Source: Ruminiclostridium papyrosolvens DSM 2782 (GTDB lineage Bacteria; Bacillota; Clostridia; Acetivibrionales; DSM-1351). Taken from it: DNA of 64,000 nucleotides. The stretch lies in the NCBI RefSeq assembly GCF_029318685.1, contig NZ_CP119677.1, positions 3,587,001 through 3,651,000 on the forward strand, read 5' to 3'. Made by a program: the position numbers and the translations under genes. The notes beneath the pieces are model-generated. The model was not told where the DNA came from. It saw nothing but the letters and a program-made list of their open reading frames with translations, and searched no databases. Positions 32,374 to 64,000 of the stretch are shown piece after piece (positions within the stretch are counted from its first letter, which is position 1; each line of letters begins with the position of its first letter).

Positions 32374-33081
32374 TTATATTGGGAATTTTGCTATTACTTC
32401 ATTATATTTCTCCTGGGCATCTGCCAAAGACAACTTTGAATAAACCTCTAGCGTCTGCCGACTCTCATGTCCTGAATATGGCTGAATCAATGAGTCATCA
32501 ATACCCTGCTTTTTAAGCCATGTAAACAGAAAGTGCCTTAGTTTATGTGGCGATAATGATTTCTGTAAATTAGCCTTTTCTGAATATTTCGCCATTATTT
32601 TCCTAATTCCTCTGTCGGTATACTTTTTTTTCCATGAAGATTCAAATAAATATGATGCATTATTTTTTTTCATATTATTATGATGCATGGCCAGCAGCTC
32701 TTTGAATGAGTGAGGAAATGGAACTATCCTATCCTTGTTACCCTTGCCATTATTTATCCTGATTTGGCAGTCTTGAAAATCAACATTATCAAGTTTAATA
32801 TTAATCAACTCACTTACTCTGACACCAGTATATAGTAAGGTTTTGATTATAAGCATGTCTTGAAAATTACTTGAGTTCCATACTTCATTATAGTATCGTT
32901 TTAACTCATCTTCTGTAGGAACATAAGGTAATTTTTTCGAATCCGCTTGTATCTCAACCTCAAGTTCTTTCCGCAATTCACGAAATACATTTTTTAAATA
33001 ATAGTAATCTGGCCTTTCTTCTCTTAGGAACTTGGCAAGTTCCTTGGCCTTCTTCTTTACCGGCGTACGTTTACTCTCCAT
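32374..33081 (-). CDS. Tyrosine recombinase, fourth of the element
   Basis: About 235 residues from the ATG at 33081, which has AGGAG upstream; an earlier in-frame start does not. The catalytic set is complete: GVRVSEL (Arg), GKGNKDR (Lys), [12 protein letters not shown] (H-x-x-R), [14 protein letters not shown] (His and Tyr). The core-binding domain is short. It follows tnpC by 185 bp and precedes the cargo. Such a gene often travels with accessory cargo and may mobilise it separately. Confidence 0.85.
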
Positions 33082-33265
33082 TTCATTGCTCCTAACTATT
33101 TTATCAAAAGTTCCTATAATCATTGGAGTAGGAACTTTATAATGATTTTTGATCTATTTATATACATATAATTAGTGATTGGATACTGAATTTGTTAGAA
33201 GTTCGTTTCCTTATAATTGAATCGGAACTTTTATCACTAAGGTTATTCTCTCAATAAAGCACTAA

Positions 33266-33649
33266 TTACTGCATATCATACAATTTACCCCTGAGCTTCA
33301 TCAGCTCGTCTTTTAACCTTTTATTTTCTTCTTCCAACTCTTTTATACGCTTATTCTTTGCAGCAATTAATATATCCTTACTATTATTAGTCATTTCTCT
33401 TTTAACCTGAGATGGGGAAGATAGACCCTCCTGCTGCTTTCGTAAAATATCGATTCTTTCACGTATTTCATCGTTATTGTAAAGGAATGCTTTTGATACT
33501 CCGGACTCCATTGAAACACTATTAAAATTGATTTTAGATTTGGATTTAATAAGCTTTTGTATTGCTTCATCAACTTTGGCTATGGTATTTTTGCTCTTCT
33601 GTTCAGCATAAGATCTTAATCCCTCAACATTTCTCTCAGAATGAATCAT
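33266..33649 (-). CDS. tnpC: Tn554-type transposition regulator TnpC
   Basis: 127 residues from the ATG at 33649 behind GGAAAGG, overlapping the tnpB end by 14 bp. It is highly charged and helical, with a C-terminal coiled coil (KELEEENKRLKDELMKLRGK). Size, position after tnpB and the SGVSKAFLYNN helix-turn-helix-like segment match TnpC (DUF6262) of Tn554, which influences transposition frequency and orientation. Confidence 0.82.
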   Translation of the reverse strand: MIHSERNVEGLRSYAEQKSKNTIAKVDEAIQKLIKSKSKINFNSVSMESGVSKAFLYNNDEIRERIDILRKQQEGLSSPSQVKREMTNNSKDILIAAKNKRIKELEEENKRLKDELMKLRGKLYDMQ

Positions 33650-35597: not shown

Positions 35598-35600
35598 AAG

Positions 35601-36725
35601 TCACTCCTCATCTAATCTACATGTAAAATTTCTTTGGGCATTCTCCCATTCTTTCCTAATGTCATCATCACTGGGATGAACATACATCTGTAATGTCGTT
35701 TGTATATGGGCATGACCAGCACGTTTCATCAAATGCTCATCTTTCCATCCAGATCTTCTGAGTTCGGTTAATGAACTATGCCTTAAAACATGGGGCATTA
35801 TTATAATACCTGTTTTTTCTCCTAACCGTTTAAATAATGATACAACATCTTGATACTCCATAGGCTTATATTTACTTCTACCAGATAGCTTTATAAATAC
35901 ATGATTTGTATCTACTTCATCCGTATGGCATTCAGCAATATAGTCAAAATAGAAATTTATTAAATCGTTAGAGACGTCTATATCTCTGGGGCTGCATACT
36001 GTTTTAATTTCTGCCATATTTTCTAGTTGTCCGCGATCTCTAATATGTATTTTATTACCATCTATTTCAAAGTCTTCAAGCCATAAAGCTAGGGCTTCTC
36101 CGATCCGGATAGAGCTTTCCCATAGAAGTTGGATTAAAAATTTATCCCGTATATTATTACAAGCATTTATAAGTGTCTCAATATCCTTTTTGGGAATAGT
36201 CTTTGGTTTTTGCTTTGGAACTTTGATTTTAAATAATTTTGCATTATATTTTTTATTTTTGCTTATGTGATATAAAAAATCTTTGAATCCTCTTCTTGAA
36301 CCAGAAATTTGCCTAATCATCTGAACCGATAATTGATTGTTGTATTCTTCATGTCTCCTTATATAGTCATAAAACCCTAAAACAGTAGAAAGTACAGTAT
36401 TAATAGTTCTCGGTGATCTACCCATTTCTGTTAAAGCTATAGGTGTTACATTTAATTTACCAAATGGACTCTGCAACCACCGAATAAATTCAGCAATATC
36501 ATCTATCTGTATACTTAAGTAATCCAGATTCTTCTTTTCTAAATATTCAAAGAACAATTTTAAATGATAGCAATATGAACGCAGTGAGTTCCTTGCCGAA
36601 CCACTATTATCCTTAAACTTAAGATATTTTAAAACAGGTACTACAAATTCACCACTCGTATCTACAAGAGCATAGCGTACTCTATTTTCTGATGTAATAA
36701 TGGTTTCAACACGCATAAAAATCAC
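35601..36725 (-). CDS. tnpA: Tn554-type tyrosine recombinase TnpA
   Basis: 374 residues, matching Tn554 TnpA (361). It has an N-terminal SAM-like core-binding domain and then the catalytic domain: WESSIRIGEALAL (Arg), MPHVLRHSSLTE (H-x-x-R), AGHAHIQTTLQMYVH (His, Tyr). It is the first gene of the tnpABC operon. Confidence 0.92.
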   Translation of the reverse strand: MIFMRVETIITSENRVRYALVDTSGEFVVPVLKYLKFKDNSGSARNSLRSYCYHLKLFFEYLEKKNLDYLSIQIDDIAEFIRWLQSPFGKLNVTPIALTEMGRSPRTINTVLSTVLGFYDYIRRHEEYNNQLSVQMIRQISGSRRGFKDFLYHISKNKKYNAKLFKIKVPKQKPKTIPKKDIETLINACNNIRDKFLIQLLWESSIRIGEALALWLEDFEIDGNKIHIRDRGQLENMAEIKTVCSPRDIDVSNDLINFYFDYIAECHTDEVDTNHVFIKLSGRSKYKPMEYQDVVSLFKRLGEKTGIIIMPHVLRHSSLTELRRSGWKDEHLMKRAGHAHIQTTLQMYVHPSDDDIRKEWENAQRNFTCRLDEE

Positions 36726-38583: not shown

Positions 38584-38595
38584 CCAACAATCACT

Positions 38596-39043
38596 ATTCC
38601 CACCCACCAAAGTCCTTCCCTGCCCCTATCCCCAAACCCCTGATTTTACTGGCTCCTGATTTTCCGTCCAAAAACACTTCTTCCGTAAAATCGCCGAAAT
38701 CTTCTTTTTTCTTTTTCCCGTTCAACCTAATAAGGTTCTTCCGTGAAAAAGGCAGGATTTAGGGGTAAGGGTTAAGGTCCATGTCCCTAAAACCTTGCAA
38801 CCATGCCCCTTTCAGGATGTCCTAAAATAGTCCTTCCCTCGGCTGTACCTAAAAAGGGACGGAAGAACTTTGGCTGGTCTGCCGTGGTCCTCTCGTCCCT
38901 TAATTCTACTGGGTTTTATCTATATTTTTTATCCGTTTTCTTTTTCCCTGGCACGGAAGGGGTTGGGGCGGCTGGGAAGAAGATGGAGGGCTGAAAATAT
39001 AGTTAAAAGGTAAACAAAGGGATGAAAAGGGAACAAGTTCTCA
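38596..39043. other. C-rich non-coding stretch of distinct composition
   Basis: About 450 bp with runs such as CTGCCCCTATCCCCAAACCC and CCATGCCCCTTTCAGG on the plus strand. It is strikingly richer in C than its surroundings. Short ORFs on both strands lack ribosome sites and recognised content. It lies between the element right end and the germination operon. Confidence 0.45.
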
Positions 39044-50481: not shown

Positions 50482-52374
50482 CTACCTTTCATTGTCCAAC
50501 TCAAGCAAATTCATATTTTTTAGTTCATATAAGTATTCTGTCCGAATTCCAGCTTTCTTTAGAATTCTCCATTCTGCTATGTCTTCTCCTTCTTTTTTCA
50601 TTTTCCTTACCGCCCAACAAATCCTCCGCAGGCGGAATTCCGAATCTGCCTCGGCAACAGACTTGATATAAGCATTGGTTCTCGGGAGTTTCTCCATATG
50701 TTGTTGCAGGATCGCCCGAAGCCCCAACGATTTACCAATACTCGATGTGCATATCCGTATTGGTTTCTCCTCGGAATTCCTCATTTCTTCTACAAGTTCC
50801 TGCACCTGCTGGCATATATCCAAATCCCGCTTCTCCCAGTCCACCCGTGTATTGACATAAACCTTCTTCCGAGCTGGAGAATGTTCATCCATCCATTTCC
50901 GATCGTTGTGGTACAGCCAAGCATATGTTCCTCGATTCATAAGACGCAGTTCCTTTTTCCCTTTATGTGGATTCTCATGTTGGAGCTGTAACCACATTTC
51001 CCGATGCTGCTCACGGATTTTATTTTCTTCCATTTCCGTATTAAGCTTCTCTGCTTTGGCATCAATTCGATTTTCCTCCTCCTTTCTATTCTCCCAGAAG
51101 GTTTCAATACCCAGTCGTTTCGCATGTTTTTTCACAGTCGCAGGGTCTACACCCATCAGTCTGGCAGTTTCCCGTAAGCTGTGCTTTTCAGCTACAACCG
51201 CTTTAAGCTTCGATTCCCACACATGCCCAAATGTTCTGATCCTTCCAAACGTATATCGATCCGTATCGGCCTTATCTGGTCCACTACGGGTATAAACAAA
51301 TCCGCAGCCACAGGCGAAAATGCCCAGCGGCCTCTTATTATCTGCATTGTATTGTACTTTCACCGTTCCAATTATGGGTTCAAGATAGTGATCTGCCGCC
51401 AGGTTTAGGCATGGCCATGGTCCCGAGCCAAACGGCGAATACTCAAACTTTCTAAAAAACAAGTCTTTCATTGATATGCCAAGAAAGCCTATGAACAGCA
51501 GATGTCTGATTGGATGGGCAGCTTTTTCCTTACTGTACAGCATATCGGTCAGCCAGTTGCTATCACCAAATATTTTGATCGGCGATTGAAGCAGTTGAAG
51601 AAATTCAGCTCCATAAAACTCCAGAAAATCTGATAATAGCTTCTTCTTCCTCAATGTTCCGTTCGCTGACGCATATCCTTTTGTTTTCAAAATCTCACGA
51701 TATTGAAACTTGAACCATTCCAGTTCTCGGTTCGGTAACGACAGGTCTATCAAGCATTGTGACAAGTCCGTCAACGTCCTTAAATGCTGTTGGATTTCTG
51801 GCTTAAGGTCTTTGACCTCACTCTTGGGACAGTTTTCTGGAGATGCCGATATATATTCATGCTTGTTAATTCCTATACATGGGACTATACTGTCAAGAAG
51901 CTGGATTTTGTGGATAGGGCATAATAAAAATGGAACTTGGTGTATCCGATGCCAATACATCTCCCCATGTTGCTGTAGAGCTTCCGATGCACAAGCGGGG
52001 CAGAACTTCAAATATCGATTTGCAGAGATCCCGTTTGCCATGATGCCCGCTCTGGTGTAAATATCACCACCTCGGGAGCCAAGCATCGAATTATAAATCT
52101 GCTTTGCCCGTTCGGGAGGCAGAAATGCTGTGTAGAAAGGAAACAGCGTATGCTCCCGAATCAACTCTTCTGCATTATAAAGTGACTTGGGCGGCATATT
52201 ACCGACCAGGTTACGAATATTACATGGCAGATCCACAATAGCTGAAGCTGTCTGGGAATTGAACAACTCCCCCATCGTCATCTTGTAGCTCTTATTCCCC
52301 GCCCTGACGTGATACCGAGCAAAAACACTATACAAAAGTTCATCGGGATACGGCGTTGGAAAAAATGAAAGCAT
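50482..52374 (-). CDS. tniQ: TnsD/TniQ-family target-site protein
   Basis: 630 residues, longer than Tn7 TnsD (508), starting with the TniQ signature MLSFFPTPYPDELLYSVFAR. A zinc finger is formed by FCPACASEALQQHG and LLCPIHK. The middle has a helix-turn-helix (ETARLMGVDPATVKKHAKRL) and the C-terminus further basic helices. TnsD proteins bind a fixed chromosomal attachment site and recruit TnsC. The full length argues for a TnsD role and against the short CRISPR-linked TniQ. It begins 3 bp after the tnsC stop. Confidence 0.92.
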   Translation of the reverse strand: MLSFFPTPYPDELLYSVFARYHVRAGNKSYKMTMGELFNSQTASAIVDLPCNIRNLVGNMPPKSLYNAEELIREHTLFPFYTAFLPPERAKQIYNSMLGSRGGDIYTRAGIMANGISANRYLKFCPACASEALQQHGEMYWHRIHQVPFLLCPIHKIQLLDSIVPCIGINKHEYISASPENCPKSEVKDLKPEIQQHLRTLTDLSQCLIDLSLPNRELEWFKFQYREILKTKGYASANGTLRKKKLLSDFLEFYGAEFLQLLQSPIKIFGDSNWLTDMLYSKEKAAHPIRHLLFIGFLGISMKDLFFRKFEYSPFGSGPWPCLNLAADHYLEPIIGTVKVQYNADNKRPLGIFACGCGFVYTRSGPDKADTDRYTFGRIRTFGHVWESKLKAVVAEKHSLRETARLMGVDPATVKKHAKRLGIETFWENRKEEENRIDAKAEKLNTEMEENKIREQHREMWLQLQHENPHKGKKELRLMNRGTYAWLYHNDRKWMDEHSPARKKVYVNTRVDWEKRDLDICQQVQELVEEMRNSEEKPIRICTSSIGKSLGLRAILQQHMEKLPRTNAYIKSVAEADSEFRLRRICWAVRKMKKEGEDIAEWRILKKAGIRTEYLYELKNMNLLELDNER

Positions 52375-52377
52375 GTA

Positions 52378-54042
52378 TCAGATCACCTCCTTCCAGAAAG
52401 ACTCTGTTTCGACTGTCCTAATCACACCATTTGCCTTCAAGGCTTCGTAGGCCGTCTGCTTACTTTTTCTACCGTCAGCCACGATCAGTCGAATATCCCC
52501 TACATCAACTTCTTCCTTGGCTTTGGGCTGCCGTGATACTTGATTATTTCCAGTCAACCGCTGTATCGACTGCACCACCACTTCTTGAACAGAACCTTGC
52601 CCAGGATTATCTCGGAGTACAGCATTAACAGCACGTTGTGCCTTTGCAGATGGAATATCCAGTTTAGCCACCTCCAAAATCGCCTGCTCCCGAACGGTAT
52701 TCAACTCCTGATTTTGCTTCTCCGCTTTTTTTCGCTGCACAGCTTTGACCTTGGCATCCAGATCAATCCGTTGTTTACCCCTCTTTGCGAATTCATCAAA
52801 ATCCACTTCGGAAATGATATCCTCAAAACTGGCCATCTTCCGAGGACTGCCTGATTTCATAGCATCCAGGACTGGTCTGCTCATTTTGAGGTTTTCAGCT
52901 GCAACTTGCTTTACCATCATCGGAGTGATATCTTCCCGCCCAGTCAAAATCGCCTGCATCTGTGCCATGGCATATAACTTTACCGCCAGATCAATGATTC
53001 CCTGGCTCTCGTCATAAAGCGTTTGACTTAACTCGCTGGTCAACGGAATCTCTTTCTTTGTCCATTGATACGGCCAGATTCCTGCCAGAAGGAGATCCCA
53101 GTCTTGATTCCGTTGCATCCGTTCCCAGAATAATGACCCCTGGGTACCGTCCGCTCTTCTGGCAAGTCGGAGTTGTCCTTGCAGGATGCTCAAAACCCTG
53201 GGTGTCCCCACCGTTATAAGCGGGATGCCAATGTTATTGTTGAGGCTGACAAAGAAATTAAGCATCTTTTCATCACCCCCACTTTTGGCAAGGCTTAAAT
53301 TCTGAATTTCATCGATGATGAGCAGCCCGCATCCCAGGTGTTGGCATACCTGTCCCATCGTAGCTACCATACTGTCGGTACTCCGTCTGCTGGTGCCAAA
53401 TTTTTTAAAATATTCCGTTCCGAGCAGGGAATCGACTTTGATAAAAAAATCTACACAAAGCCCCTTGATACTTCCATCCATCGGGCAATCAAGTTTCAGG
53501 TAAGTCAACTGGTAGGCTGAAAATTTTGTTCCGTGAAAGTTATTATGTAGTATCACCTGTGGTATATGCTTCAGGGAATGATGCAGTGCTGTTGACTTCC
53601 CGATGCCAGACACCCCAATCAGGCTAAAGCCAAGTGTTGTGGTCCGATAGCAACCCGAATATCCAGTCTCCCAGTTATCCGACTGAATCACTTGATAACC
53701 CTCTCGTATTGCCTTTGCAAACTGGGGCCGCAGCGGATTCCGAGCAGCATAACCCTCCCGCATTGCCATAGATATCCGAGACTCCAGTTCCAGATGGAAT
53801 GGCAACGGCTGAAAAACCTGGAATAATCGACGGACAAAATGAACACGGTAATGACTTTCCTGTTTCCGTTCTTCTGGATTGTATGGAGGATATGCAGAAA
53901 GCCGCCTGGCAATCTCTTGCGGCGGCATGATTGGAGGCAAGGCCTCCGTGTATGGATTGTGTGCATATTCGTGAATGACCTGCGGTGAATACTCGGCCAT
54001 CATCGCAGCTGTGCCATTGGGAATCATAATCATCTCACTCAT
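52378..54042 (-). CDS. tnsC: Transposition AAA+ regulator TnsC
   Basis: 554 residues, close to Tn7 TnsC (555). Walker A is GVSGIGKSTALHH, Walker B CGLLIIDEIQNLS. A long charged C-terminal tail would contact TnsA/TnsB. It links target recognition (TniQ) to the transposase and enforces target immunity. Its start overlaps tnsB by 8 bp. Confidence 0.93.
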   Translation of the reverse strand: MSEMIMIPNGTAAMMAEYSPQVIHEYAHNPYTEALPPIMPPQEIARRLSAYPPYNPEERKQESHYRVHFVRRLFQVFQPLPFHLELESRISMAMREGYAARNPLRPQFAKAIREGYQVIQSDNWETGYSGCYRTTTLGFSLIGVSGIGKSTALHHSLKHIPQVILHNNFHGTKFSAYQLTYLKLDCPMDGSIKGLCVDFFIKVDSLLGTEYFKKFGTSRRSTDSMVATMGQVCQHLGCGLLIIDEIQNLSLAKSGGDEKMLNFFVSLNNNIGIPLITVGTPRVLSILQGQLRLARRADGTQGSLFWERMQRNQDWDLLLAGIWPYQWTKKEIPLTSELSQTLYDESQGIIDLAVKLYAMAQMQAILTGREDITPMMVKQVAAENLKMSRPVLDAMKSGSPRKMASFEDIISEVDFDEFAKRGKQRIDLDAKVKAVQRKKAEKQNQELNTVREQAILEVAKLDIPSAKAQRAVNAVLRDNPGQGSVQEVVVQSIQRLTGNNQVSRQPKAKEEVDVGDIRLIVADGRKSKQTAYEALKANGVIRTVETESFWKEVI

Positions 54043-56194
54043 AAACTCTTTTCATCGCCTCCTGCTGTAGCTGAACAAGTAAATCATACTGACTGGCTTC
54101 TACATTTGATTCCGCCTCATTCTGCATCTGAATTACAGTTCCAAGGGTTTCTTCAGATTGCTTTCCGAGTTCAAAACCTTCACGCTCCCGACCTTCTGCC
54201 TTTTCAAGGCTTTTGTTATCTCGAATGCCTTTCAGTCTGGCTGTTTTACTCTCATTCGTTTCAGACTCCGCCTGGTGAAGACTATCAGCCTTCTTAACAA
54301 TATCCTGAATCTGGGATATCAATTCTACCTTTCCTTGGGTCTCCTGACGCTCAATCTTGTCCTTCTTCTGTTTTTCCTCCTCAAAATAATATTGGATTTC
54401 TTCAAGAGCTCGGTGTTTGAATGCCGTCTGATATTCCAGCATGGTGCATTTATCATACGCAGTTCCATCTTGATTCTTGATGTAGATGTAATCCATATTC
54501 CGAGGATCATATGCCACTTGGATTTTCCATGTCTTCTGCCTTGCCTTTTCAAACATCCTATCTTTCAGGCAAATTGATGATGAATAGAAAACCCCCTGGA
54601 AGCGTATCCCTCTGGCCGTCACTGTCGCTTCGTCCGTCGGCATCAGATGTAGCTTAACAACATCCTCATTGGCTGATCGTAGCTTGCCTGCCCGATTTAC
54701 AACACCCCAATTCCAAATCTCTCTTGGGATCATTGGAATGCCATCCTGAATCATGCCAACATCTTTATGATACTGGGATAAGTGATGCTGGTTGTTATGG
54801 TAGAGTACGCAGCGTATCATAATCTGGGTAAATTGATGAATATCAAGCTTCGCATCCAGCCTATAATCTCGGCTGCCTCGTTCCCGAAAATTTGTTCCGT
54901 TTTGGACTGCTCCAGGCAAGAATGGCTTGGCCGCCAGGTTAGTCAGGCGGAAATTTTGTTCGACAATGCTCTTCCAATCGGCACGATACGGCGGAGTGTT
55001 CATAATTTTTATGCCAAGACCATCCACCAAATTCTCGGCATTCTTACCTTCCATCTCCCCACGGTCGGCCAGAATAGCTTCGGGTAAGTATGCCGTATCC
55101 CAATCTTCATTATTAATAGTGATTCCATACTCTGCACAATAGGCAACTTTATCTGCGGTGCTGTTAGCCAAGGCATTCATTGCTCCCAGCCAACTGCCCG
55201 ACTCGAATCCGCAGTAGATACCGACAATCATACGGGAAAAAACATCTATTGCTACGTAAACGCAGGGCCTACCCACAATCCAATTACGGTTCATGGAGCT
55301 AACAAGATAAACATCCGCCACTGTACTGTCAAATTGGTAGATGCTGCCTGGACCGATTGCCTCACTCGTTGAATTTCCAATTATGGGACGAAATTGTTGA
55401 GCATATCGTTTGGCACTAATTCTGTATGTAATCTCATTTCGGATATCCTTCTCTTTGTTGTGCCAGTACAAAAATTGCTTATATGATGGTAGCTCTTCCT
55501 TCGGCTTGAGAATCGGCACTTTCACATCGTCGATGTATTTATAGCTTTCGGCAAAAAAGTCCTTAAGCATCAGATTATATGCCATCTTCAAAGAATGCTG
55601 GGCTGTTGTATAATAATATTTTTTAATAGCCACCCGAAAGATCTGTTTAATATCGTCCGTAACATTGATTCCTGTTCCGTTCTTCTGTTCACGAGGTCTA
55701 CCACGCTTGAGCGATGATACATTTTTATCCACCCCCTTTTTTCCGCATAGATACAGATCTGGGAGTAAGGCATTAGGATTTTGCCCTCGGACCCAGTATC
55801 GCTTAAGATAGTGGTATATGGATTTTTCACTCACGCCATTCCTATTCGCTGCCTCCTTGACCAGACGGCTGCGTTCCTTGGGCATATAGATTTCAGGTTC
55901 TTGCATCACGATCCCCTGGATAGTATCCCAGGCCTTTTGCCTTCCTGCTCTCTCTTTCTCGGTCAACTGGCTATCATGTACTATCCTTATATAAGGGTCA
56001 TTTGAGAGTTCTTCTGCTCTCCCTTCTTCCAGAGCAGTCACTAAATCCGACCAACGCCTGACATAAGGCATTTCCTGGGTATCCGTATTTATAGCAAAGG
56101 CTCTATTTTCGTACTTTGAGAACCAAAGAATCCTTTCTGTCATTGGATTTTCCGTTGCTTTCCAGATGAGCAGCATATTCACAGTTATAAACAT
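54035..56194 (-). CDS. tnsB: DDE transposase TnsB
   Basis: 719 residues (Tn7 TnsB is 702). N-terminal HTH domains (NRNGVSEKSIYHYLKRYWVR) precede the RNase H-like core. All three catalytic acids are present: YQFDSTVADVY, PEAILADRGEM and WKSIVEQNFR. A C-terminal beta-barrel and a basic tail follow. It cuts the 3' ends and joins them to target DNA. The ATG at 56194 overlaps the tnsA end by 10 bp and has GGAAGGTGA upstream. Confidence 0.94.
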   Translation of the reverse strand: MFITVNMLLIWKATENPMTERILWFSKYENRAFAINTDTQEMPYVRRWSDLVTALEEGRAEELSNDPYIRIVHDSQLTEKERAGRQKAWDTIQGIVMQEPEIYMPKERSRLVKEAANRNGVSEKSIYHYLKRYWVRGQNPNALLPDLYLCGKKGVDKNVSSLKRGRPREQKNGTGINVTDDIKQIFRVAIKKYYYTTAQHSLKMAYNLMLKDFFAESYKYIDDVKVPILKPKEELPSYKQFLYWHNKEKDIRNEITYRISAKRYAQQFRPIIGNSTSEAIGPGSIYQFDSTVADVYLVSSMNRNWIVGRPCVYVAIDVFSRMIVGIYCGFESGSWLGAMNALANSTADKVAYCAEYGITINNEDWDTAYLPEAILADRGEMEGKNAENLVDGLGIKIMNTPPYRADWKSIVEQNFRLTNLAAKPFLPGAVQNGTNFRERGSRDYRLDAKLDIHQFTQIMIRCVLYHNNQHHLSQYHKDVGMIQDGIPMIPREIWNWGVVNRAGKLRSANEDVVKLHLMPTDEATVTARGIRFQGVFYSSSICLKDRMFEKARQKTWKIQVAYDPRNMDYIYIKNQDGTAYDKCTMLEYQTAFKHRALEEIQYYFEEEKQKKDKIERQETQGKVELISQIQDIVKKADSLHQAESETNESKTARLKGIRDNKSLEKAEGREREGFELGKQSEETLGTVIQMQNEAESNVEASQYDLLVQLQQEAMKRVYE

Positions 56195-57054
56195 TTCATC
56201 ACCTTCCTTTGGGAACTGTCTGCTATACCAAGAATAATGTGATTGGCTGGCAGATTAAGATTGATAGCCTCTGTAATGTTTATCTTTAATCTTTTGTTTG
56301 CCAGCAAATACTTAAAAACCGCCAAAGCTGTGCCAGCTTCCAGCAGATTCTCTTTTTCAAAATCTTGGAGCACTTTTCTCAATTGCATTGGATTTTGATA
56401 TATCTCTTCCTGAAGCAGTGCCCCTATCTGTTCGGCAGCATCCGTATCCAAGCCTCTGTCCTCGAGGTTCTTGGAGGAATGGAGCCATTCAATGTTCTTG
56501 GCTGCAGATACAGGAATGTCCTTGTTGGTAATCACACCCCAGTCTATTCCTTTAGCATCCCAGTATCTTCTCTGAATTTCCAAGCTTTCAAGAGTAAGCC
56601 GTTTTTCCAGTTCCGATTGTGCCTTAACAGTCCGAGCAATGATTTGCTCTTTTCCATTTATGGTACGAAGGGTTATAAGAAATGTCGTCTGCAGTACATA
56701 GGGTGTGCCTGTCTTTTTATCACAGAAGCACTGGAAGTCCAGCCCTGCCTTGTTCTGTATAACCTCATCAGCATTTAGTAGCGGAAAGCATTCCCGAATG
56801 TCCATCACTTGATCTGCCCATTCCAGCAGGTAAAAGTATCGGGCCTGTAGATCCGTAAAAAGATGATGCACTCTTCCTGTTTTCCAACCAAGAATCCGAC
56901 TGACCCTTCCCATGCTCGGATAGTCGTTTATCGTCAGCCATGGTTTATACTCTGCACCAGTTCCCTGCCCTCTTCCTTCATTTATAAATCTTTGATATTT
57001 GTCCTCCGTCCATTCGGAGTTATATCTGCCCACATTTTTCACCCCCGAAGGCAC
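56185..57054 (-). CDS. tnsA: TnsA-like endonuclease with altered active site
   Basis: 289 residues from a GTG, matching TnsA in length (273) and motifs: FYLLEWADQVMDIRECFPLL near the first catalytic Glu, then ARTVKAQSELEKRLTLESLE with the catalytic Lys, and RRYWDAKGIDWGVITNKDIP. Between these, the TDFL motif whose Asp is catalytic in TnsA (Asp114 in Tn7) reads LQTTFLIT here, with Thr in place of Asp. TnsA makes the 5' cuts, and without them Tn7 becomes replicative. Either the Asp is supplied elsewhere or cutting is lost. Confidence 0.88.
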   Translation of the reverse strand: MPSGVKNVGRYNSEWTEDKYQRFINEGRGQGTGAEYKPWLTINDYPSMGRVSRILGWKTGRVHHLFTDLQARYFYLLEWADQVMDIRECFPLLNADEVIQNKAGLDFQCFCDKKTGTPYVLQTTFLITLRTINGKEQIIARTVKAQSELEKRLTLESLEIQRRYWDAKGIDWGVITNKDIPVSAAKNIEWLHSSKNLEDRGLDTDAAEQIGALLQEEIYQNPMQLRKVLQDFEKENLLEAGTALAVFKYLLANKRLKINITEAINLNLPANHIILGIADSSQRKVMKCL

Positions 57055-57094
57055 TGAAGGGGTTAAGCATATAGCTCAACCCCACTCGTTGCCA

Positions 57095-57586
57095 TTATCC
57101 TCGGTATTTGTCACGGAGTTGCTCATGGATAAAGAACCATTCAAGTTCTTGATGTTCCATAAAACCCTGAATCGCAAGTTCTTCAAAGGATTGATTTTTC
57201 TTCAGTAGATATTTTTCTCTTACTTCTTGAATGATGCTCTCATCGTTACCCTTTCTGATTTCAGCATACTGTTCTGCTGTGATTAGTCCTCCTATCAGCA
57301 TGTCGTATTGGTCAAGCACAAAATCCCAGTCCAGAACGTTTGTATCAGCTGATATACTGTACACGACGATTTCATGTGCAGCTGCACACTCCCTTTCACT
57401 GCCAATGCTCACACTTTTTGAAAGCAACTCTCCAGTTCGCAGATCTAAAAGAGCTACACCCGTCTTCTCCCCGTATCTCCAGCCTGCAAAAGCAGTCCGA
57501 AATATTGGATCGATACTCATAGCGAGCAGTTTATCGAACAATTCGTCATAATCAACGAATCCTTGTTTGTTATACTTTTTCACCAT
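57095..57586 (-). CDS. Tns-operon accessory protein 1, unrecognised
   Basis: A 163-residue protein 40 bp upstream of tnsA on the same strand. Its centre (AGWRYGEKTGVALLDLRTGE) matches the gene at 57715 (DGWIYGAKTGYAELNLKTGE), so the two are paralogues. No known family or catalytic motif is recognised. Being inside the transposition operon, it may regulate or assist transposition, or be cargo. AAAGGGGG lies about 10 bp before the ATG. Confidence 0.7.
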   Translation of the reverse strand: MVKKYNKQGFVDYDELFDKLLAMSIDPIFRTAFAGWRYGEKTGVALLDLRTGELLSKSVSIGSERECAAAHEIVVYSISADTNVLDWDFVLDQYDMLIGGLITAEQYAEIRKGNDESIIQEVREKYLLKKNQSFEELAIQGFMEHQELEWFFIHEQLRDKYRG

Positions 57587-57714
57587 CCATACATTCCCCC
57601 TTTGAGACGGCTCCTATGGAATGGACCGTCCATGATATATTGTTTGTTGTTTTATCTTGCTGAATCTTTTATTTGGGATAAATCCCATTGCCTTGATGAT
57701 TTCTTCGGTAGTTG

Positions 57715-58101
57715 TCAGTGGTATGAGTTATAATATTGATAAATGTAATCGAGCTCGTTCTCTATCTTTTGTTTATCAAGTTCAACCCAGTCAAACATCT
57801 CTTCAAGGACATAATCATCAAATTCGTCTGCTTTATCTTCAGTGACAACATCAGTTGTACTGTCAATCTTATACAGAACAACATATACATAATCGTCCGA
57901 TGCATAAAACCCACCCGTATCAAGGCTACCTGTCTCAAGTTCCCCTGTCTTTAAATTAAGTTCCGCATACCCAGTCTTCGCCCCATATATCCATCCATCA
58001 TATGCGGTCAAAACGATCTCCTCAATCGTCAGTTCTTCGATAATTCTATCTATTTCATCCCGAGGCAATAGATCTTCTATCCGTTTAGATGCATTTCCCA
58101 T
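57715..58101 (-). CDS. Tns-operon accessory protein 2, acidic paralogue
   Basis: 128 residues, notably rich in Asp and Glu (DKADEFDDYVLEEMFDWVEL), a DNA-mimic-like composition. It shares the GW-YG-KTG-A-L-L-TGEL core with the gene at 57095. It begins 3 bp after the HTH gene stop and precedes its paralogue by 128 bp. The function is unknown. A role as regulator of DNA-binding partners is conceivable from its charge but unproven. Confidence 0.7.
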   Translation of the reverse strand: MGNASKRIEDLLPRDEIDRIIEELTIEEIVLTAYDGWIYGAKTGYAELNLKTGELETGSLDTGGFYASDDYVYVVLYKIDSTTDVVTEDKADEFDDYVLEEMFDWVELDKQKIENELDYIYQYYNSYH

Positions 58102-58104
58102 CGC

Positions 58105-58383
58105 TTATCCCTCCATCCGTTCATCCTGATTTGATGTGTTCTCATTTCTCGAACATGTATAAATTATAAAATCTATTATGTCCATTCCAAGCACTGCGGC
58201 AATTCTACCTACGGTCTGTGGTCTTGGTCGGACTTGATTTTGCTCAATCCTGGCTATTGTCTTAACATCCAACTTTGCCTGTTCAGCAAGTTGTCTCATG
58301 CTGATTCCACGTCTTGCCCGCTCTACCGATATCCGTTCACCGTCATAGAGATAATCAAGACTTTTGTAGATATTCATGGTCAT
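58105..58383 (-). CDS. XRE-family regulator, first gene of the tns operon
   Basis: About 92 residues with a helix-turn-helix (ISMRQLAEQAKLDVKTIARI then EQNQVRPRP). The start is given at the ATG at 58383; an internal ATG at 58377 is also possible. It leads the seven-gene minus-strand operon ending in tniQ and is the natural autoregulator of transposition. It is divergent from the second regulator at 58517. Confidence 0.85.
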   Translation of the reverse strand: MTMNIYKSLDYLYDGERISVERARRGISMRQLAEQAKLDVKTIARIEQNQVRPRPQTVGRIAAVLGMDIIDFIIYTCSRNENTSNQDERMEG

Positions 58384-58516
58384 CACACCCCTTCGCTTAC
58401 TTTTTAGATGACTTTATTGTAACATCTATTTTTACCACAATGCAAGTTTTACTTGTTACTATTTTTGCTTACTTTTTAGCAGTTATATGATATACTCTTA
58501 TCAGAGGAGTGAGACT
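58384..58516. promoter_or_regulatory. Divergent promoter with 13-bp direct-repeat operators
   Basis: GCTTACTTTTTAG occurs twice in the same direction, at 58395-58407 and 58467-58479, placed near the two divergent start regions. TGATATACT (about 58487) is a candidate -10 for the plus-strand regulator. These are likely operators for one or both XRE proteins, coordinating the tns operon with the recombinase side. Confidence 0.65.
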
Positions 58517-59068
58517 ATGATTGGTGAACGTTTAGCTATGTTGAGAAATGAGAAAAAATTGACAATGCGTGCAATAGGAAAACTTGTTGGTGTTTCGGAT
58601 GCGGCCTGGGTTAAATATGAAAAAAATCGTGCAGAGCCATCCATTGCAACCCTATGCAAAGCGGCAGAGCTATTTAATGTGTCTCTTGATTATTTAATGG
58701 GGCGGACAAACATACGAGATCCCAAGCTTGTCGATACAGCTAATATCCAAAATGTTTTTCTAAAAGAATTTGAAGAATCCACCATCGGCGATACCAGTAA
58801 GTTTTTCTACCTTTTTGAAACTCTATCTGGTGCTATAGGCTTAATCAAAAATGAAAAGGTTACAGAAGCAGAATTCCAGCTCCTGTTAAAAATGTTGAGT
58901 GACCTGATTATCTATTTCAACGATATTCATTCAATGAAAGAGGAAACGTCTGTGCTCAACAAGCGTGTGTTTGATTACCATGCTACCACTGCCGCAGATA
59001 TGCTCCACGATCTACATAGACTTTTGGAGTTAACATTTATAACTGATGACTCTGAAAAACAGCCTTGA
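58517..59068 (+). CDS. XRE-family repressor-like regulator
   Basis: 183 residues from the ATG at 58517, which has GAGGAG upstream; an earlier in-frame start is inside the promoter. The N-terminal HTH (LTMRAIGKLVGVSDAAWVKY) is followed by the usual NVSLDYLMGRTN linker and a helical C-terminal domain of unknown function. It is divergent from the tns operon and upstream of the tyrosine recombinase. Confidence 0.85.
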   Translation: MIGERLAMLRNEKKLTMRAIGKLVGVSDAAWVKYEKNRAEPSIATLCKAAELFNVSLDYLMGRTNIRDPKLVDTANIQNVFLKEFEESTIGDTSKFFYLFETLSGAIGLIKNEKVTEAEFQLLLKMLSDLIIYFNDIHSMKEETSVLNKRVFDYHATTAADMLHDLHRLLELTFITDDSEKQP

Positions 59069-59236
59069 ATACTTATGTGACCAGATATCTGAATCTTATT
59101 TTTATTTTGAAGCACGGAAAACCGCATGCTTTCGTTTCGGGAAATCGTCAACTGGCGACATAATGTAAATTTATGAAGCCAGATTATAAGGCCAGTATGC
59201 TTAATCATTCCTATTACGTAGAAAGGGGAAATCGAA

Positions 59237-60112
59237 TTGAATTGGATAACCGAATATGAAAACCACCTGAAGACGGCACAGAAAAGTCCAAACACCATCA
59301 GCAGTTTTGTCTCGGACGTGCATGAATTTGTAGAATGGTTCGCAATTACATACGGCAAGAAATTTGATTGTCAAGTCCTGGAGCAGGATGCTCGGGAGTT
59401 CCGTGGCTTCTTGTTAAATATTTTGAGAAGGAAGCCAGCCACTATTAACAGGAAAATGGCAGCGTTAAAAAGCTTCAACCAGTTCTTGGTTGAAAAAGGG
59501 TTGAGCAAGGATATACCTATCGCTGGGCTTCTTCTCGCCGACCCTTCTGACCGAGAAATAAAGACCCTGGAACGCACAGAGCAAAACAAACTCAAACGTG
59601 CCATCTATGCAAAGGGAAACAAGCGAGATATCGCCATCTATGAATTGCTTTATAATATCGGCGTAAGAGTAAGCGAACTTGTTTCGCTTTCCCTCGAGGA
59701 TGTCCACTTGACGGAACGGAATGGCAATATCAATTATAGCTACGTCATCATCCGCCAAGGAAAAGGCAGTAAATATAGAGAATGCCCGCTCAACGCCCAG
59801 GCTCGTTCGGCATTGGATGAATACCTGAAAATACGAGTTTCATCCTCTGACAATATTTTCATCGGGCAGCGTGGTCCGCTTGGCAGAGAAGCTGTCGACA
59901 AAATTCTCAAAAAGTATTGTGCCGATGCAGGAATTGATAGAATCAGCAGCCATGTTATCCGACATACTTTTTGCACCAGGCTTATCCAGGAAGGCGTTCC
60001 ACTGCCGACAGTATCAAGGCTGGCTGGGCATAGCTCGGTAGAAACCACCACACGCTTCTATGTGCATACCCCTCGGGCTGACAAGATAGCGGCAGTGGAA
60101 AAGTTATTATAA
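59237..60112 (+). CDS. XerC/D-like tyrosine recombinase
   Basis: 291 residues from a TTG start preceded by AAAGGGG (59222-59228). The N-terminal SAM-like domain (WITEYENHLKTAQKSPNTIS) and catalytic domain are complete: GVRVSEL (Arg), GKGSKYRECPL (Lys), SSHVIRHTFCT (H-x-x-R), LAGHSSVETTTRFYVH (His, Tyr). It is the size of XerC/XerD and TnpI-type resolvases. It is directly followed by the inverted 12-bp repeat arrays, a probable recombination site. It could resolve cointegrates made by the Tn7-like element or act as the integrase of a separate element. Confidence 0.9.
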   Translation: MNWITEYENHLKTAQKSPNTISSFVSDVHEFVEWFAITYGKKFDCQVLEQDAREFRGFLLNILRRKPATINRKMAALKSFNQFLVEKGLSKDIPIAGLLLADPSDREIKTLERTEQNKLKRAIYAKGNKRDIAIYELLYNIGVRVSELVSLSLEDVHLTERNGNINYSYVIIRQGKGSKYRECPLNAQARSALDEYLKIRVSSSDNIFIGQRGPLGREAVDKILKKYCADAGIDRISSHVIRHTFCTRLIQEGVPLPTVSRLAGHSSVETTTRFYVHTPRADKIAAVEKLL

Positions 60113-60209
60113 GACGCACTTTCAGCTTGTTTCTGTTTTCTTGATTCTTGCTGCATTTGCAGAAACATTCTATCTGACTGTTGAGGAATAAACATACGGA
60201 CTACGCTGG

Positions 60210-60501
60210 TATGCTTAAGCTTTAACTTTAGCCATATCTTAAGCCTTATCTCAAGCATATCCTTAAGCCCAGCATAAATGATGTGACCGTAGCTTGCCCA
60301 TTCATCCCATAAAAGGACGATGCTTCAGCATATCTGGAGTAATCCCATTACTGTTCCAAACTCCCGCATTTCTTATATATATAAAGAGAATTCGGGAGTT
60401 CCACAAATATCCATTATGCTGTGATAAAGTTATGGCTTAAGGATAAATCCGTTGCTTGAGTATATGGCTATTGATATGGCTTTAGCATATGATTAAGCTT
60501 A
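60210..60501. repeat. Inverted arrays of 12-bp repeats around a palindrome
   Basis: Array 1 (60210-60269) is five contiguous 12-bp units on the minus strand: GGCTTAAGGATA, TGCTTGAGATAA, GGCTTAAGATAT, GGCTAAAGTTAA, AGCTTAAGCATA. Array 2 (60434-60501) has the same kind of units on the plus strand, starting with an identical GGCTTAAGGATA, then TGCTTGAGTATA after 7 bp. Between them is a palindrome with arms AACTCCCG (60359-60366) and CGGGAGTT (60393-60400). This layout suggests a recombination or replication site. Confidence 0.75.
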
Positions 60502-60623
60502 TGCTCTCATTAATATTCCTGTTAACCATTCAACCGTAGGAGTCCGCATCCTTCGCTATATTCATCCAGTACTTAAATTAACAGACAACCTTACCGTCAC
60601 CAATGCAGCAGCTCCAATAAAAC

Positions 60624-60665
60624 AAAAAATCCCGATGCCTTAATCGCCAAGCATCGAGATTTTTT
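60624..60665. terminator. Bidirectional terminator
   Basis: Near-perfect arms AAAAAATCCCGATGC (60624-60638) and GCATCGAGATTTTTT (60651-60665) lie immediately after the XRE gene stop. Confidence 0.9.
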
Positions 60666-61000
60666 CATTTAACATAGGTTAAAATAAGTTTCAGCATTTC
60701 TTCTGCCAATTTCATTTCCCGCTCATTACATTTTTCAAGCAACGCTTGAACCACGCTTTTATCAAGCTTTTGCTCCTCTTGTTCTCCATAAATAATCACA
60801 TTTGGATCTACATGCAAACACTCCAGAATGCGAACAAACGTATTTAAACTCATCGTTCTCTGTCCACGTTCAATTTGGCCGATATACAGAGCACTCAAGT
60901 CCACAGCTTCGGCAAACTGTTCACGGGTCAATCCAATTTTTTCTCTTGCTGTCCTAATTCGTATTCCTATTCCTGGTAAATCCAGCACCTTTTCATTCAC
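60665..61000 (-). CDS. XRE-family transcriptional regulator
   Basis: 111 residues with a classical HTH (IGLTREQFAEAVDLSALYIG then QIERGQRTMSLNTF) and a helical tail. It is a single gene with its terminator at the stop codon. An inverted repeat GATGCaaataGCATC at 61030-61044, upstream of its start, may be its operator. It resembles regulators on conjugative or phage-like elements, so it may mark the right part of the island. Confidence 0.85.
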   Translation of the reverse strand: MNEKVLDLPGIGIRIRTAREKIGLTREQFAEAVDLSALYIGQIERGQRTMSLNTFVRILECLHVDPNVIIYGEQEEQKLDKSVVQALLEKCNEREMKLAEEMLKLILTYVK

Positions 61001-61131
61001 TTTATATCCACTCTTTCTTCATAAAAAGTGATGCAAATAGCATCATCCTTACTTTATATGGATATCAGTGAATGATAAATCTGCCATTAGCGTCTTTATT
61101 TTATATGCTTACAGCATATTCAATAGCTAAA

Positions 61132-62871
61132 TTATATTTCTCCTTTGTTTTTCATATCAGAATATAATTTTTCAGCATCTTTATTTCCGAAATTTGCAGC
61201 CCGCTCAAGAAGATTACTCGACTTTATAACATCCTTCTCAACTCCTACGCCATAATAATATGCCTGTCCGAGATTATATAAAGCATTTGCGTCACTTGCA
61301 TCCGTAGCTTTACTTATCCACTTAATAAATTCAGCAGTATTACTTTCTGTTCCTTCTCCTTTGTAATTCAATACACCAAATCTATTCATTGCATCGGCAT
61401 TCCCACACTCTGCCGCATACTTCATTAACTTGAAACCCAAAGTAGGATTATAGAATTTGCTGCCAGCATCCGTATATTTATACGCAAGGTTTTTCGATGC
61501 AATATAATGTCCTTTATCTGCTGCTTGTTTATAATAAACTACAGCTTTTTGTATATCAGCCGTAGTACCCAAGCCTTTATCATAAATAACTGCCATCTTG
61601 TTTATTGCTTCAACAGATCCTTTCTGTATCTGCATATTACATTGTTCAGTATATTTCTTGTAGTATTCCGCTGATTTTTTTGAATCATAGAGTAAATTTT
61701 CTTTTGTGCCATAAAAAATACCCAACTGATACATTGAATCTGCGTTCCCCTGCTCTGCTGACCTCGTATAAAAATCAACAACTTGCTTTTCATACTTCTC
61801 CGCCAGGGTTGAATCTTTCACCACACCTTCACCCTTCAAATAGATAGCCGCCAACTTTTTACATGCTAAAACATTATAATTATCAGCTGCCTTTTTATAG
61901 AAATCAATCGCTTTATTAATGTCTTTTTCAATACCCTTTCCATCAAAAAGTACATTTGCCATACTATATTGTGCTTCACTGTCTCCCTTGTCTGCAGCAG
62001 CAGTATACAATTCTACTGCTTTTTGGAGATCAACATTACCGCCTCTACCTTGGTAATTGTAAAATGCCAGCCCTTTGTACCCAGCAGGAATTCCCATTTT
62101 CATTAATTCATCAAAATATCCTTTAGCTTTCGCATTGTCAATATCAACACCATTGCCCCCCAAATAAATATTTGATAAATTTATTTCTGCTTCTACATCA
62201 CCGTCCGAAACTTGTTTTTCATATATTTTAATTGCTTCCGAATAATATTCTCGATATTTCTTTAAGTCAATTTGAACTCCTCTGCCCTCAAGATACATAT
62301 CCCCTAACTGACAATATGCCGCAGCACTTCCCTTTTTCGCAGCCTGCTCAAATAATTCTTTTGCTTTATTGTAATCCAAGTCAACCGAATATCCATTTAA
62401 ATACATCCAACCAAGATTCATTATCGCATCAGGATAATTTCTATCTGCAGCCTTTGAGAACAGTTGGAATGCTTTTTTATAATCAACTGGATATCCTTCG
62501 TAACCATCGTAAATATCTCCGAGTCTATTTTGTGCTTCTGCATCGCCTTTATTTGCTGCTTCAGTATAAAATTTAAGTGTTTTCTCAATGTCAACATCGA
62601 CACCTGCACCAAGTTCGTAAAGCATACCTAATCTTGTCTGTGCCTTACTATTGCCCAAGCTGGCAGCTTTCTCATAATAAAGTACTGACTCTGGAAACTT
62701 ATGTGCTTTAGAATATCCATCTGCAATGAACATAAAAGCTTTACCAGTAAAGAAAAGGAATCCCAAAGCAATAATTATTAATACCAGAGCAGTCCCAATG
62801 ATAAACTTTCCCATGCTGCGTTTTTTCTTGTTTTCTACAATTGAAGTTTCAGCTATCCCATTATTAATCAT
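61132..62871 (-). CDS. Membrane-anchored Sel1-repeat protein
   Basis: 579 residues behind AAGGAGA. One transmembrane helix (about 22-42, GKFIIGTALVLIIIALGFLF) follows a short cytoplasmic N-terminus. The outside part is about fourteen Sel1/TPR-like repeats (A-x-x-G-x-x-x-A-x-x-x-L-G-x-x-Y), forming a superhelix for protein binding. No enzyme domain is seen. It lies 14 bp downstream of the copper-amine-oxidase-domain gene, so the two are probably co-transcribed. Confidence 0.9.
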   Translation of the reverse strand: MINNGIAETSIVENKKKRSMGKFIIGTALVLIIIALGFLFFTGKAFMFIADGYSKAHKFPESVLYYEKAASLGNSKAQTRLGMLYELGAGVDVDIEKTLKFYTEAANKGDAEAQNRLGDIYDGYEGYPVDYKKAFQLFSKAADRNYPDAIMNLGWMYLNGYSVDLDYNKAKELFEQAAKKGSAAAYCQLGDMYLEGRGVQIDLKKYREYYSEAIKIYEKQVSDGDVEAEINLSNIYLGGNGVDIDNAKAKGYFDELMKMGIPAGYKGLAFYNYQGRGGNVDLQKAVELYTAAADKGDSEAQYSMANVLFDGKGIEKDINKAIDFYKKAADNYNVLACKKLAAIYLKGEGVVKDSTLAEKYEKQVVDFYTRSAEQGNADSMYQLGIFYGTKENLLYDSKKSAEYYKKYTEQCNMQIQKGSVEAINKMAVIYDKGLGTTADIQKAVVYYKQAADKGHYIASKNLAYKYTDAGSKFYNPTLGFKLMKYAAECGNADAMNRFGVLNYKGEGTESNTAEFIKWISKATDASDANALYNLGQAYYYGVGVEKDVIKSSNLLERAANFGNKDAEKLYSDMKNKGEI

Positions 62872-62884
62872 GTGTGTCTCCTTA

Positions 62885-64000
62885 TTATTTGTTATTTATA
62901 ACTATTTCTTGGGATTCTGCGTTCCACTGTACCGAATACCCCATGTTTTCACTAACAAACCGCAGAGGAACCATGGTTCTTCCATTGATGGTCTGTGCTG
63001 CTTCCAGCATTTCCACAGCTTTCCCGTTAACATAGGCTGTTTTAGAGCCAATCTTAAGTTTAATGGTGGTATTGTCTTTTGTGATAAGCACTTCCTGGGT
63101 AGTACCGTTCCACTCCACTGTAGAGCCAAAGGCCTCGGTAATAGCTCTGACAGGAACCAGAGTTGTACCCTTTGGAGCTACTGGAGCTGTATCCAGTATC
63201 ACATTTGAAGATATTCCCGCTTGGTTAATTACCATTTGCTTGCTTTGAAGTTGCAAAGTAACTGTAACTTTCGATTTTTCATTAATGTATTTTTTAAGAT
63301 CATCTAAAGAAGCAAACTTGTCTTCGGTATTTTTAAACTCAATCTTTTCACCATCTGTTAGCTTATAATATTCTTGATAATTTTTAAGCAAGAAGCTTTT
63401 GAATACATAAACAGGCATTCTATCAATGTTATATTTGGCTTTGGCATCCTCAAAGCTCAATTTATCCTCAAAGATTCCTGCAGATAATCCGTTATAGTTC
63501 TTATCTTCACCAATTACATTAAGGTATTCTTGCTTTCCGTTATCCTTCATAGCCTGTATGTAATGGTCCTTATAAATACAATCTTGCCATGGCATCCAAT
63601 TGAGATAAATAACTTCCTTTTTAGGATAGAAAAAAGCAGCCGAACCAAATTCAAATTTGCCCATGTCAGCCTTCTCTCTCTCATAGTATTCATCTACTGT
63701 ATACTTCTTTTGCAGAAATGGTGTCGTTAAATAATCAGTCCATGTACTTGAGAGCCGCAAATTGCCATTAGTTTCTCCAGTATTGTAAATACTTTCATCC
63801 TCACGGGTAATTGTTATATAGTTCGGATACCATTTCCCAGCAATATTGACTTTTGTAAAATCCTCATTGAAGAACCAATCGGTATACTTTAGAGTCATCT
63901 GTTCATCTGCTGCACTGGCAACCGTAATATTAGCAGCCGAAAACATCATCGTAAAGACCATAAATATGGCCAGAATCTTTCTCGTAATTTTCTTTTTCAT
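62885..64000 (-). CDS. Secreted protein with copper-amine-oxidase-type N domain
   Basis: 371 residues; the ATG is the last codon of the window, so the gene is complete but its ribosome site is outside. A signal peptide ends VASAADE. The N-terminal 235 residues are unrecognised (Trp/Tyr-rich). The C-terminal about 110 residues contain the stalk-type domain common in clostridial surface proteins (GTTLVPVRAITEAFGSTVEW and GRTMVPLRFVSENMGYSVQW). That domain is a structural module; no oxidase activity is implied. Confidence 0.88.
   Translation of the reverse strand: MKKKITRKILAIFMVFTMMFSAANITVASAADEQMTLKYTDWFFNEDFTKVNIAGKWYPNYITITREDESIYNTGETNGNLRLSSTWTDYLTTPFLQKKYTVDEYYEREKADMGKFEFGSAAFFYPKKEVIYLNWMPWQDCIYKDHYIQAMKDNGKQEYLNVIGEDKNYNGLSAGIFEDKLSFEDAKAKYNIDRMPVYVFKSFLLKNYQEYYKLTDGEKIEFKNTEDKFASLDDLKKYINEKSKVTVTLQLQSKQMVINQAGISSNVILDTAPVAPKGTTLVPVRAITEAFGSTVEWNGTTQEVLITKDNTTIKLKIGSKTAYVNGKAVEMLEAAQTINGRTMVPLRFVSENMGYSVQWNAESQEIVINNK

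Follow-up and report, generated by a model that had tools for sequence, protein, structure and literature searches.

Repeated sites beside a tyrosine recombinase in a Tn7-like island of Ruminiclostridium papyrosolvens: a candidate system of cargo recombination

Tyrosine recombinases and their sites in related elements

In the TnpI/IRS unit of Tn4430, a tyrosine recombinase is accompanied by a palindromic core and direct repeats. Integrons combine the integrase IntI with an attI site and attC cassettes, and one of them is carried by Tn7 itself, which inserts about 25 bp past the stop codon of glmS. The pdif sites of the Acinetobacter modules are 28 bp long. Among Tn7-like transposons, Benler et al. 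(2021; PMC8649781) describe branches without tnsA, for which replicative transposition is predicted and which carry tyrosine or serine resolvases, and report intact or partial integrons in 10% of the elements; according to Faure et al. (2023; PMC10293859), TnsF, a protein related to tyrosine recombinases, is a target selector. An earlier note on the DNA analyzed here knew of no description of a Tn7-like element with its own resolvase; as a general statement that such elements are undescribed, this is wrong, given the tnsA-lacking elements with tyrosine resolvases and predicted cointegrates in PMC8649781. In the literature surveyed (most subscription papers lie outside it), we found no account of multiple sites per recombinase with cargo exchange in Tn7-like islands.

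The locus described below lies in a 64,000-nucleotide stretch (hereinafter, the window) of the 5.03-Mb single contig of Ruminiclostridium papyrosolvens (genome G000; its contig coordinates are marked as such), and comprises a tyrosine recombinase gene and copies of a large site within a Tn7-like island. It shares with TnpI/IRS the tyrosine recombinase, the palindromic core and the direct repeats but differs in the Tn7-type rather than Tn3-type transposase, in the arrays on both sides of the core and in the presence of several sites (four instead of a single resolution site per element). As in the integron of Tn7, a tyrosine recombinase and repeated sites between cargo units are located inside a Tn7-type element, and the islands contain arrays of units bounded by sites; unlike in integrons, the recombinase scores 71.1 bits with the IntI model NCBIfam TIGR02249 (cut-off 265) and so falls outside that family, the sites are about 350 bp long and consist of inverted arrays around a palindromic core, and the cargo is organized in blocks of several genes, about 5.6 to 18.6 kb in size. 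The pdif/dif modules likewise have sites of a tyrosine recombinase (XerC/XerD) around their cargo units, but they rely on the host XerCD and on far shorter sites instead of a dedicated recombinase. The TnsR Tn7-like elements of PMC8649781 also combine Tn7-like core genes, loss of TnsA function and a tyrosine recombinase, whereas the island analyzed here keeps a TnsA without catalytic residues and has several sites instead of one, the arms of which re-pair.

The comparison of these islands suggests that they may work like an integron or a pdif-module system, with gene blocks being swapped at the middles of the sites. Specifically, with a probability of about 0.6, the site next to the recombinase gene (site W) would be the first of several co-directional recombination sites of the island's own recombinase, which together would form a cargo-recombination system. 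The recombinase would pair two cores and exchange strands in the palindromic centre; such exchange would insert, delete or swap cargo blocks and would also move the array between Tn7-like backbones, and the 12-bp arrays would bind either further recombinase or a 193-aa helix-turn-helix (HTH) protein, controlling synapsis. The carrier is a Tn7-like island whose TnsA is probably dead and whose integration is probably replicative. If true, this scenario provides a defined route by which Tn7-like islands assemble defence and stress cargo, explains the presence of one cargo array on two distantly related Tn7 backbones, and amounts to a testable second answer to the integron, with the same outcome reached via a different recombinase and site.

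The island beside glmS, its recombinase and site W

The 52.8-kb island starts at 38595 and extends beyond the end of the window, next to a gene that was named glmS by a model. On the minus strand, it encodes tnsD (50482-52374; TniQ and TnsD domains), tnsC (52378-54042; AAA_22/TniB) and tnsB (54035-56194; Mu-transpos_C), all recognized with Pfam, as well as tnsA (56185-57054). The left copy of the target duplication ATCAC (38590-38594) is followed by a 405-bp terminal direct repeat, T (TATTCCC...GAAAATA; 38595-38999, or contig 3625595-3625999), which is identical to contig 3678011-3678415 beside glmS; the right copy of the duplication, outside the window, occupies contig 3678416-3678420. The glmS gene ends at contig 3678440 and the right end of the island lies about 25 bp past its stop codon, the same spacing as in Tn7. 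The tnsABCD genes and the glmS-proximal insertion with a 5-bp duplication are those of a Tn7-like element, and because the island runs from 38595 to past the end of the window, its mapped ends enclose the recombinase-array pair, as the earlier note had supposed. The segment 39212-47885, within the bounds of the terminal repeats, holds spore germination genes of the GerA type together with genes for a chemotaxis receptor and an EAL/GGDEF protein. Outside the island, 32374-36725 encodes tyrosine recombinases of 374, 653 and 249 aa along with a 157-aa DUF6262 protein; we take the first two of these recombinases to resemble the TnpA/TnpB pair of Tn554-type elements.

The recombinase gene of the island (59237-60112, plus strand) has a TTG start at 59237 and a stop at 60112, and encodes a 291-aa protein of XerC/D size that matches Phage_integrase (6.3e-36) and a SAM-like N-terminal domain in Pfam. 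The catalytic R, K, HxxR, H and Y motifs are intact and present in all three orthologues, so that the complete XerC/D-size recombinase seen earlier is borne out. In a comparison with chains of solved structure, XerC-like, XerD and XerA enzymes are among its better matches; the scores with the NCBIfam XerC and XerD models (156.9 and 156.3 bits) are below both cut-offs (335.15 and 329.6). Judging from a dN/dS of 0.04 to 0.10 among the orthologues, with synonymous sites near saturation, the recombinase is evidently under purifying selection. The closest named relative, 81% identical, comes from Ruminiclostridium cellobioparum DSM 1351 (L009), and three genomes only hold the recombinase at 81-100% identity. 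In the class sample of 391 genomes, 4 contain a match at E up to 1e-55, two of these at 39-42% identity. A partial match (59% identity) was found in a Desulfotomaculum MAG (L010), where no W-like site was seen by eye around the gene, and visual inspection likewise detected none in the surroundings of the distant recombinases of L048 and L049. All relatives in the plasmid and phage collections are below 60% identity, and the IMG/VR search with the recombinase returned 15 pattern stretches with no relative among them. Directly upstream of the recombinase is the gene for the 193-aa HTH protein (58487-59068, plus strand), a candidate array binder; a gene for a 163-aa protein without a Pfam match (57095-57586, minus strand) is kept beside the recombinase in genomes G001 and G033.

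Site W, a symmetric structure of about 350 bp (60197-60546), lies directly downstream of the recombinase gene. Its outer inverted repeats, CGGACTAC (60197-60204, plus strand) on the left and GTAGGAGTCCG (60536-60546, plus strand) on the right, surround two arrays of 12-bp units, between which there is a 42-bp palindromic core (60359-60400; halves AACTCCCG...CGGGAGTT), the best conserved part of the 12 sites described below. This arrangement is largely the one reported in the earlier note: the left array (60210-60269) consists of five contiguous 12-mers on the minus strand, running from 60269 down to 60210, the palindrome is in place, and both arrays begin with GGCTTAAGGATA. The right array (60434-60501, plus strand) also comprises five units as claimed but is not contiguous, with a 7-bp gap after unit 1 and a 1-bp shift after unit 2. 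At least four units within 72 bp were seen nowhere else in the window in a scan with a matrix that was made from the same units; because this test is circular, conservation is the independent evidence that the arrays are not due to chance. Both the arrays and the palindrome are found again in R. cellobioparum (L009) and in a genome from another family, G033, and a W-type site adjoins the recombinase in all 3 genomes that have it. The region 57000-64000 has no Rfam match at E up to 1.

Repeated sites, cargo blocks and the pairing of arms

A DNA search of the whole G000 genome with 60112-60664 retrieved, besides W, three more places (contig 3653371, 3671952 and 3677666), all within 31 kb on the strand that carries W; one core also gave a short match in inverted orientation. 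The resulting four co-directional sites (W, B2, B3 and B4) are all inside the island, and the whole-genome searches detected no copy elsewhere in G000. In a search of 60 genomes, namely G000 and its relatives, matches were found in 4 (G000, G001, G033 and G019), bringing the total to 12 sites. A sequence-only model of these sites, applied with strict filters to the 391 class-sample genomes, identified 4 places in G000, 2 in G033 and none in any other genome; the core pattern had 0 occurrences in IMG/VR, and the site is absent from the plasmid collection. The general plan is arm-core-arm, with a palindrome of 40 to 42 bp that in most copies has a TATATA-type centre. The flanking inverted arrays are clearest in W and its orthologues; outside the W family, the orientation of the units is not clean, with only 1 expected-strand unit in the left arm of B4 and 0 in that of G1e. 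Sites G1d and G1c (L035:10830-11150, that is, G001 233830-234150) are fused through their arrays at ATATGGCTTAAGC, the cores being about 160 bp apart.

The cores in G000 are spaced 6.1, 18.6 and 5.6 kb apart. The first block (60547-64000, continuing past the window to site B2, with its core at about contig 3653483) contains genes for HTH, Sel1-repeat and copper amine oxidase N-domain proteins along with an IS240-type transposase; the second includes, among others, a type I restriction system and VRR-NUC and YgjP-like proteins, and the third, among others, GroEL, Hsp20 and a transporter-like protein. In the islands overall, the cargo bordered by sites comprises type I restriction, GroEL/Hsp20, helicase and Gabija genes. 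The same three blocks as in G000 (80-93% identical DNA over long stretches) and the same recombinase are present in G001, in an island beside a gene named guaA by a model, where TnsB, TnsC and TnsD are just 26-28% identical to those of G000; hence a single array resides on a glmS-associated TnsABCD backbone in G000 and on a guaA-associated backbone with TnsB, TnsC and a TniQ-type TnsD in G001. In the TnsD proteins of G001 and G033, TniQ is clear and the TnsD domain falls below the cut-off. The homology of block 3 between G000 and G001 stops inside the last site (3677764 vs 226714). Over 2705 bp, the helicase blocks of G019 and G001 share 96.2% identity, the hosts belonging to different families. 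A Gabija-type pair, GajA and GajB (L037:10579-14407), is found beside site G33b of G033, where the other islands have a different block.

The arms of the 12 sites (left, -330 to -45 of the core; right, +30 to +315) were compared by pairwise scores, with 600 shuffled left-arm pairs as the null (99% of these scored no higher than 27, and the highest score was 33). The left arms form the groups W/G1a/G33a, B2/G1b, B3/G33b(/G1c), B4/G1e and G1d/G19, and the right arms the groups W/G1a/G33a, B2/G1b, B3/G1c, B4/G19 and G1e/G33b. Thus, both sides agree at the homologous positions W, G1a and G33a, and B2 and G1b. By contrast, in G33b the left arm matches that of B3 (score 172) and the right arm that of G1e (325), and the scores are only 24 each for G1e on the left and B3 on the right. 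In B4, the left arm goes with G1e (193) and the right arm with G19 (166); here G1e on the right scores 24 and G19 on the left 21. In G19, a left arm like that of G1d (499), accompanied by the entire 2.7-kb helicase block, is joined to a right arm like that of B4. Through the shared centre, L3 is accordingly paired with R3 and R5, L4 with R5 and R4, and R4 with L4 and L5, and the arms follow the adjoining cargo block. Where G1d scores with G1c and B3 on the right, and G1c with G1d and G19 on the left, the values reflect the overlap of these two closely spaced sites, G1d and G1c. Some between-group scores also exceed the shuffles (up to 67 on the left and 47 on the right), presumably owing to the arrays common to all sites.

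Wherever arms have been re-paired, the exchange maps to the interval between them that holds the palindrome, which fits site-specific exchange at the palindrome, and we infer from the sequences that the recombinase acts on these sites. Several points weigh against cargo exchange. First, homologous recombination across the conserved centre could re-pair arms likewise. Second, the B2 core and the left half of G1b are flipped relative to the other sites. Third, several cargo breakpoints fall outside the site centres: in G033, block 1 is missing but the left and right W-type arms are both still present, homology restarts beyond the right arm of B2, and the breaks are not in site centres; in G001, the additional helicase block lacks a site on the left, and its right site is fused to the next one; and no site was seen where the shared recombinase block ends on the left, next to the gene for the 163-aa protein. 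Site-specific exchange therefore accounts for part of the cargo history, not all of it.

An independent and cleaner parallel is provided by G042 and G049, Tn7-like elements with a replaced D114 in TnsA and a tyrosine recombinase, 33-35% identical to that of G000, encoded divergently upstream of tnsA. In G042, two 58-bp palindromes, S1 (p/q') and S2 (q/p'), bracket a single gene beside the tyrosine recombinase; in G049, there is a single palindrome, p/p', with flanks 92-93% identical to the outer flanks of the G042 pair. The centres show the pattern that would be expected from a crossover in the palindrome centre. Because the centres of S1 and S2 mismatch, homologous recombination would not easily yield p/p', whereas a centre crossover would. 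When 58 genomes from the order were searched for the exact pattern, only G042 and G049 contained the palindrome. The two recombinases are not alignable to each other at the DNA level, and the palindrome could serve another element. The bracketed gene (L087:10584-12877; 658 aa), absent in G049, has a weak CHC2 zinc-finger match below the cut-off.

TnsA, terminal repeats and the competing explanations

After cargo exchange, the explanation that survives best is resolution of cointegrates or dimers: as in TnsR elements, the recombinase would act at W on the products of replicative transposition, the extra sites being by-products of past fusions. As a full account we regard this as unlikely. It draws on the state of TnsA, in which, when aligned with the Tn7 protein, E63, D114 and Q130 are replaced by Q, T and T, and K132 is retained. 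In Tn7 TnsA, all four of these residues are catalytic. With Q/T/T/K in place of the E/D/Q/K of cut-and-paste elements, that is, with three of four catalytic residues lost, the TnsA encoded in the window probably cannot cut, which agrees with the suspicion voiced in the earlier note. Resolution is further favoured by the 405-bp direct repeats and the 5-bp duplication, which resemble the replicative insertion of a circle, by the gain of tyrosine resolvases in tnsA-lacking Tn7-like elements reported in PMC8649781, and by the tyrosine recombinases divergently upstream of D114-replaced TnsA in G042 (two elements) and G049. However, repeat T contains no copy of the recombinase site, so that this duplication could not be resolved there, and for this reason pure resolution ranks below cargo exchange. 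Furthermore, four direct copies would delete cargo, and a recombinase (with that of G000 as the query) was found in 3 of 7 stretches around tnsA genes lacking D114, these 20-kb stretches being shorter than whole elements. Cargo exchange and resolution are not mutually exclusive. Of the resolution site proposed earlier, a recombinase with its own site likely stands; the idea of a single resolution site gives way to four copies that have cargo between them and arms that re-pair at the centre.

A less probable explanation is that the sites are repeated elements with a role in control or replication, their iteron-like arrays being recognized by an initiator such as an HTH protein, with arms re-paired by homologous recombination only. 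Three HTH genes lie within 3 kb, the 12-bp direct repeats resemble iterons, and the conserved centre offers homology for crossover; against this, no replication initiator was recognized among the scanned part of the island proteins, a site adjoins the recombinase in each of the three genomes encoding it, and the palindrome rather than the array is best conserved. A 350-bp MITE-like element inserted several times, to which the outer repeats of W might point, is very improbable given that no copies were found outside the island in G000 and that the arms differ among sites and track their neighbours.

Loss of D114 is common in the class sample, where TnsA yielded 31 matches in 21 of the 391 genomes; 25 of these were taken as loci, one being the window itself. 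Of the 24 other loci, 14 have another residue in place of D114, 9 retain it and 1 is not covered at this position, and two further TnsA copies (L092 and L096) also lack D114. Aligned in this way, TnsA is retained without its nuclease residues in the D114-replaced loci, and the predicted loss is a widespread change, not one mutation. Among these loci (L062-L086), the replacing residue in the 14 is T, S or N, and 13 of the 14 have K at the K132 position. A 115-aa ORF before tnsB in the guaA islands was considered as a cut-down TnsA on the basis of resemblance by eye and was set aside, having no Pfam match.

Terminal direct repeats were also detected in other islands: identical 305-bp copies in G001 (221108 and 266763), where no target duplication was seen; repeats of about 312 bp (96%) in G033, on two contigs so that their pairing is inferred; identical copies of about 451 bp in G049 (1324844 and 1382044), with TTATC at both outer sides; and three copies of about 450 bp (87-92%) in G045 (127064, 148494 and 169335). 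In G042, merely 134 bp at 97% were found and were not counted as a terminal repeat. The single control (G007), an element of the same genus that lies at glmS and retains E63, D114 and K132, had no such repeats in 80 kb. The G000 island probably integrates by replicative transposition, and the islands with terminal direct repeats would be circles inserted replicatively. If true, a clade with dead TnsA and LTR-like repeats bears on how Tn7 relatives without TnsA activity handle cointegrates in nature.

Combining these observations with cargo exchange, we tentatively propose, as a broader scenario well short of even odds, a cassette platform on the Tn7-like islands of Clostridia with dead or unrecognizable TnsA, based on large arm-core-arm sites and a tyrosine recombinase other than IntI. 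Whole circles would enter the chromosome by replicative transposition of a double-ended terminal unit of 0.3 to 0.45 kb, leaving LTR-like repeats, and would swap cargo blocks, and even Tn7 backbones, at the sites.

The LTR-like repeats of 0.3 to 0.45 kb have inverted termini and occur in islands with a TnsA lacking D114 (G000, G049 and G045) or with an unrecognizable TnsA (G001). In G000 and G049, the inner flanks of the repeats read CTAACTA/T/TAGTTA, in inverted order. Additional terminal-repeat-like copies surround the main pair of G049 (1319967-1324778 and 1383348-1384071) and look as if islands had been successively inserted beside glmS.
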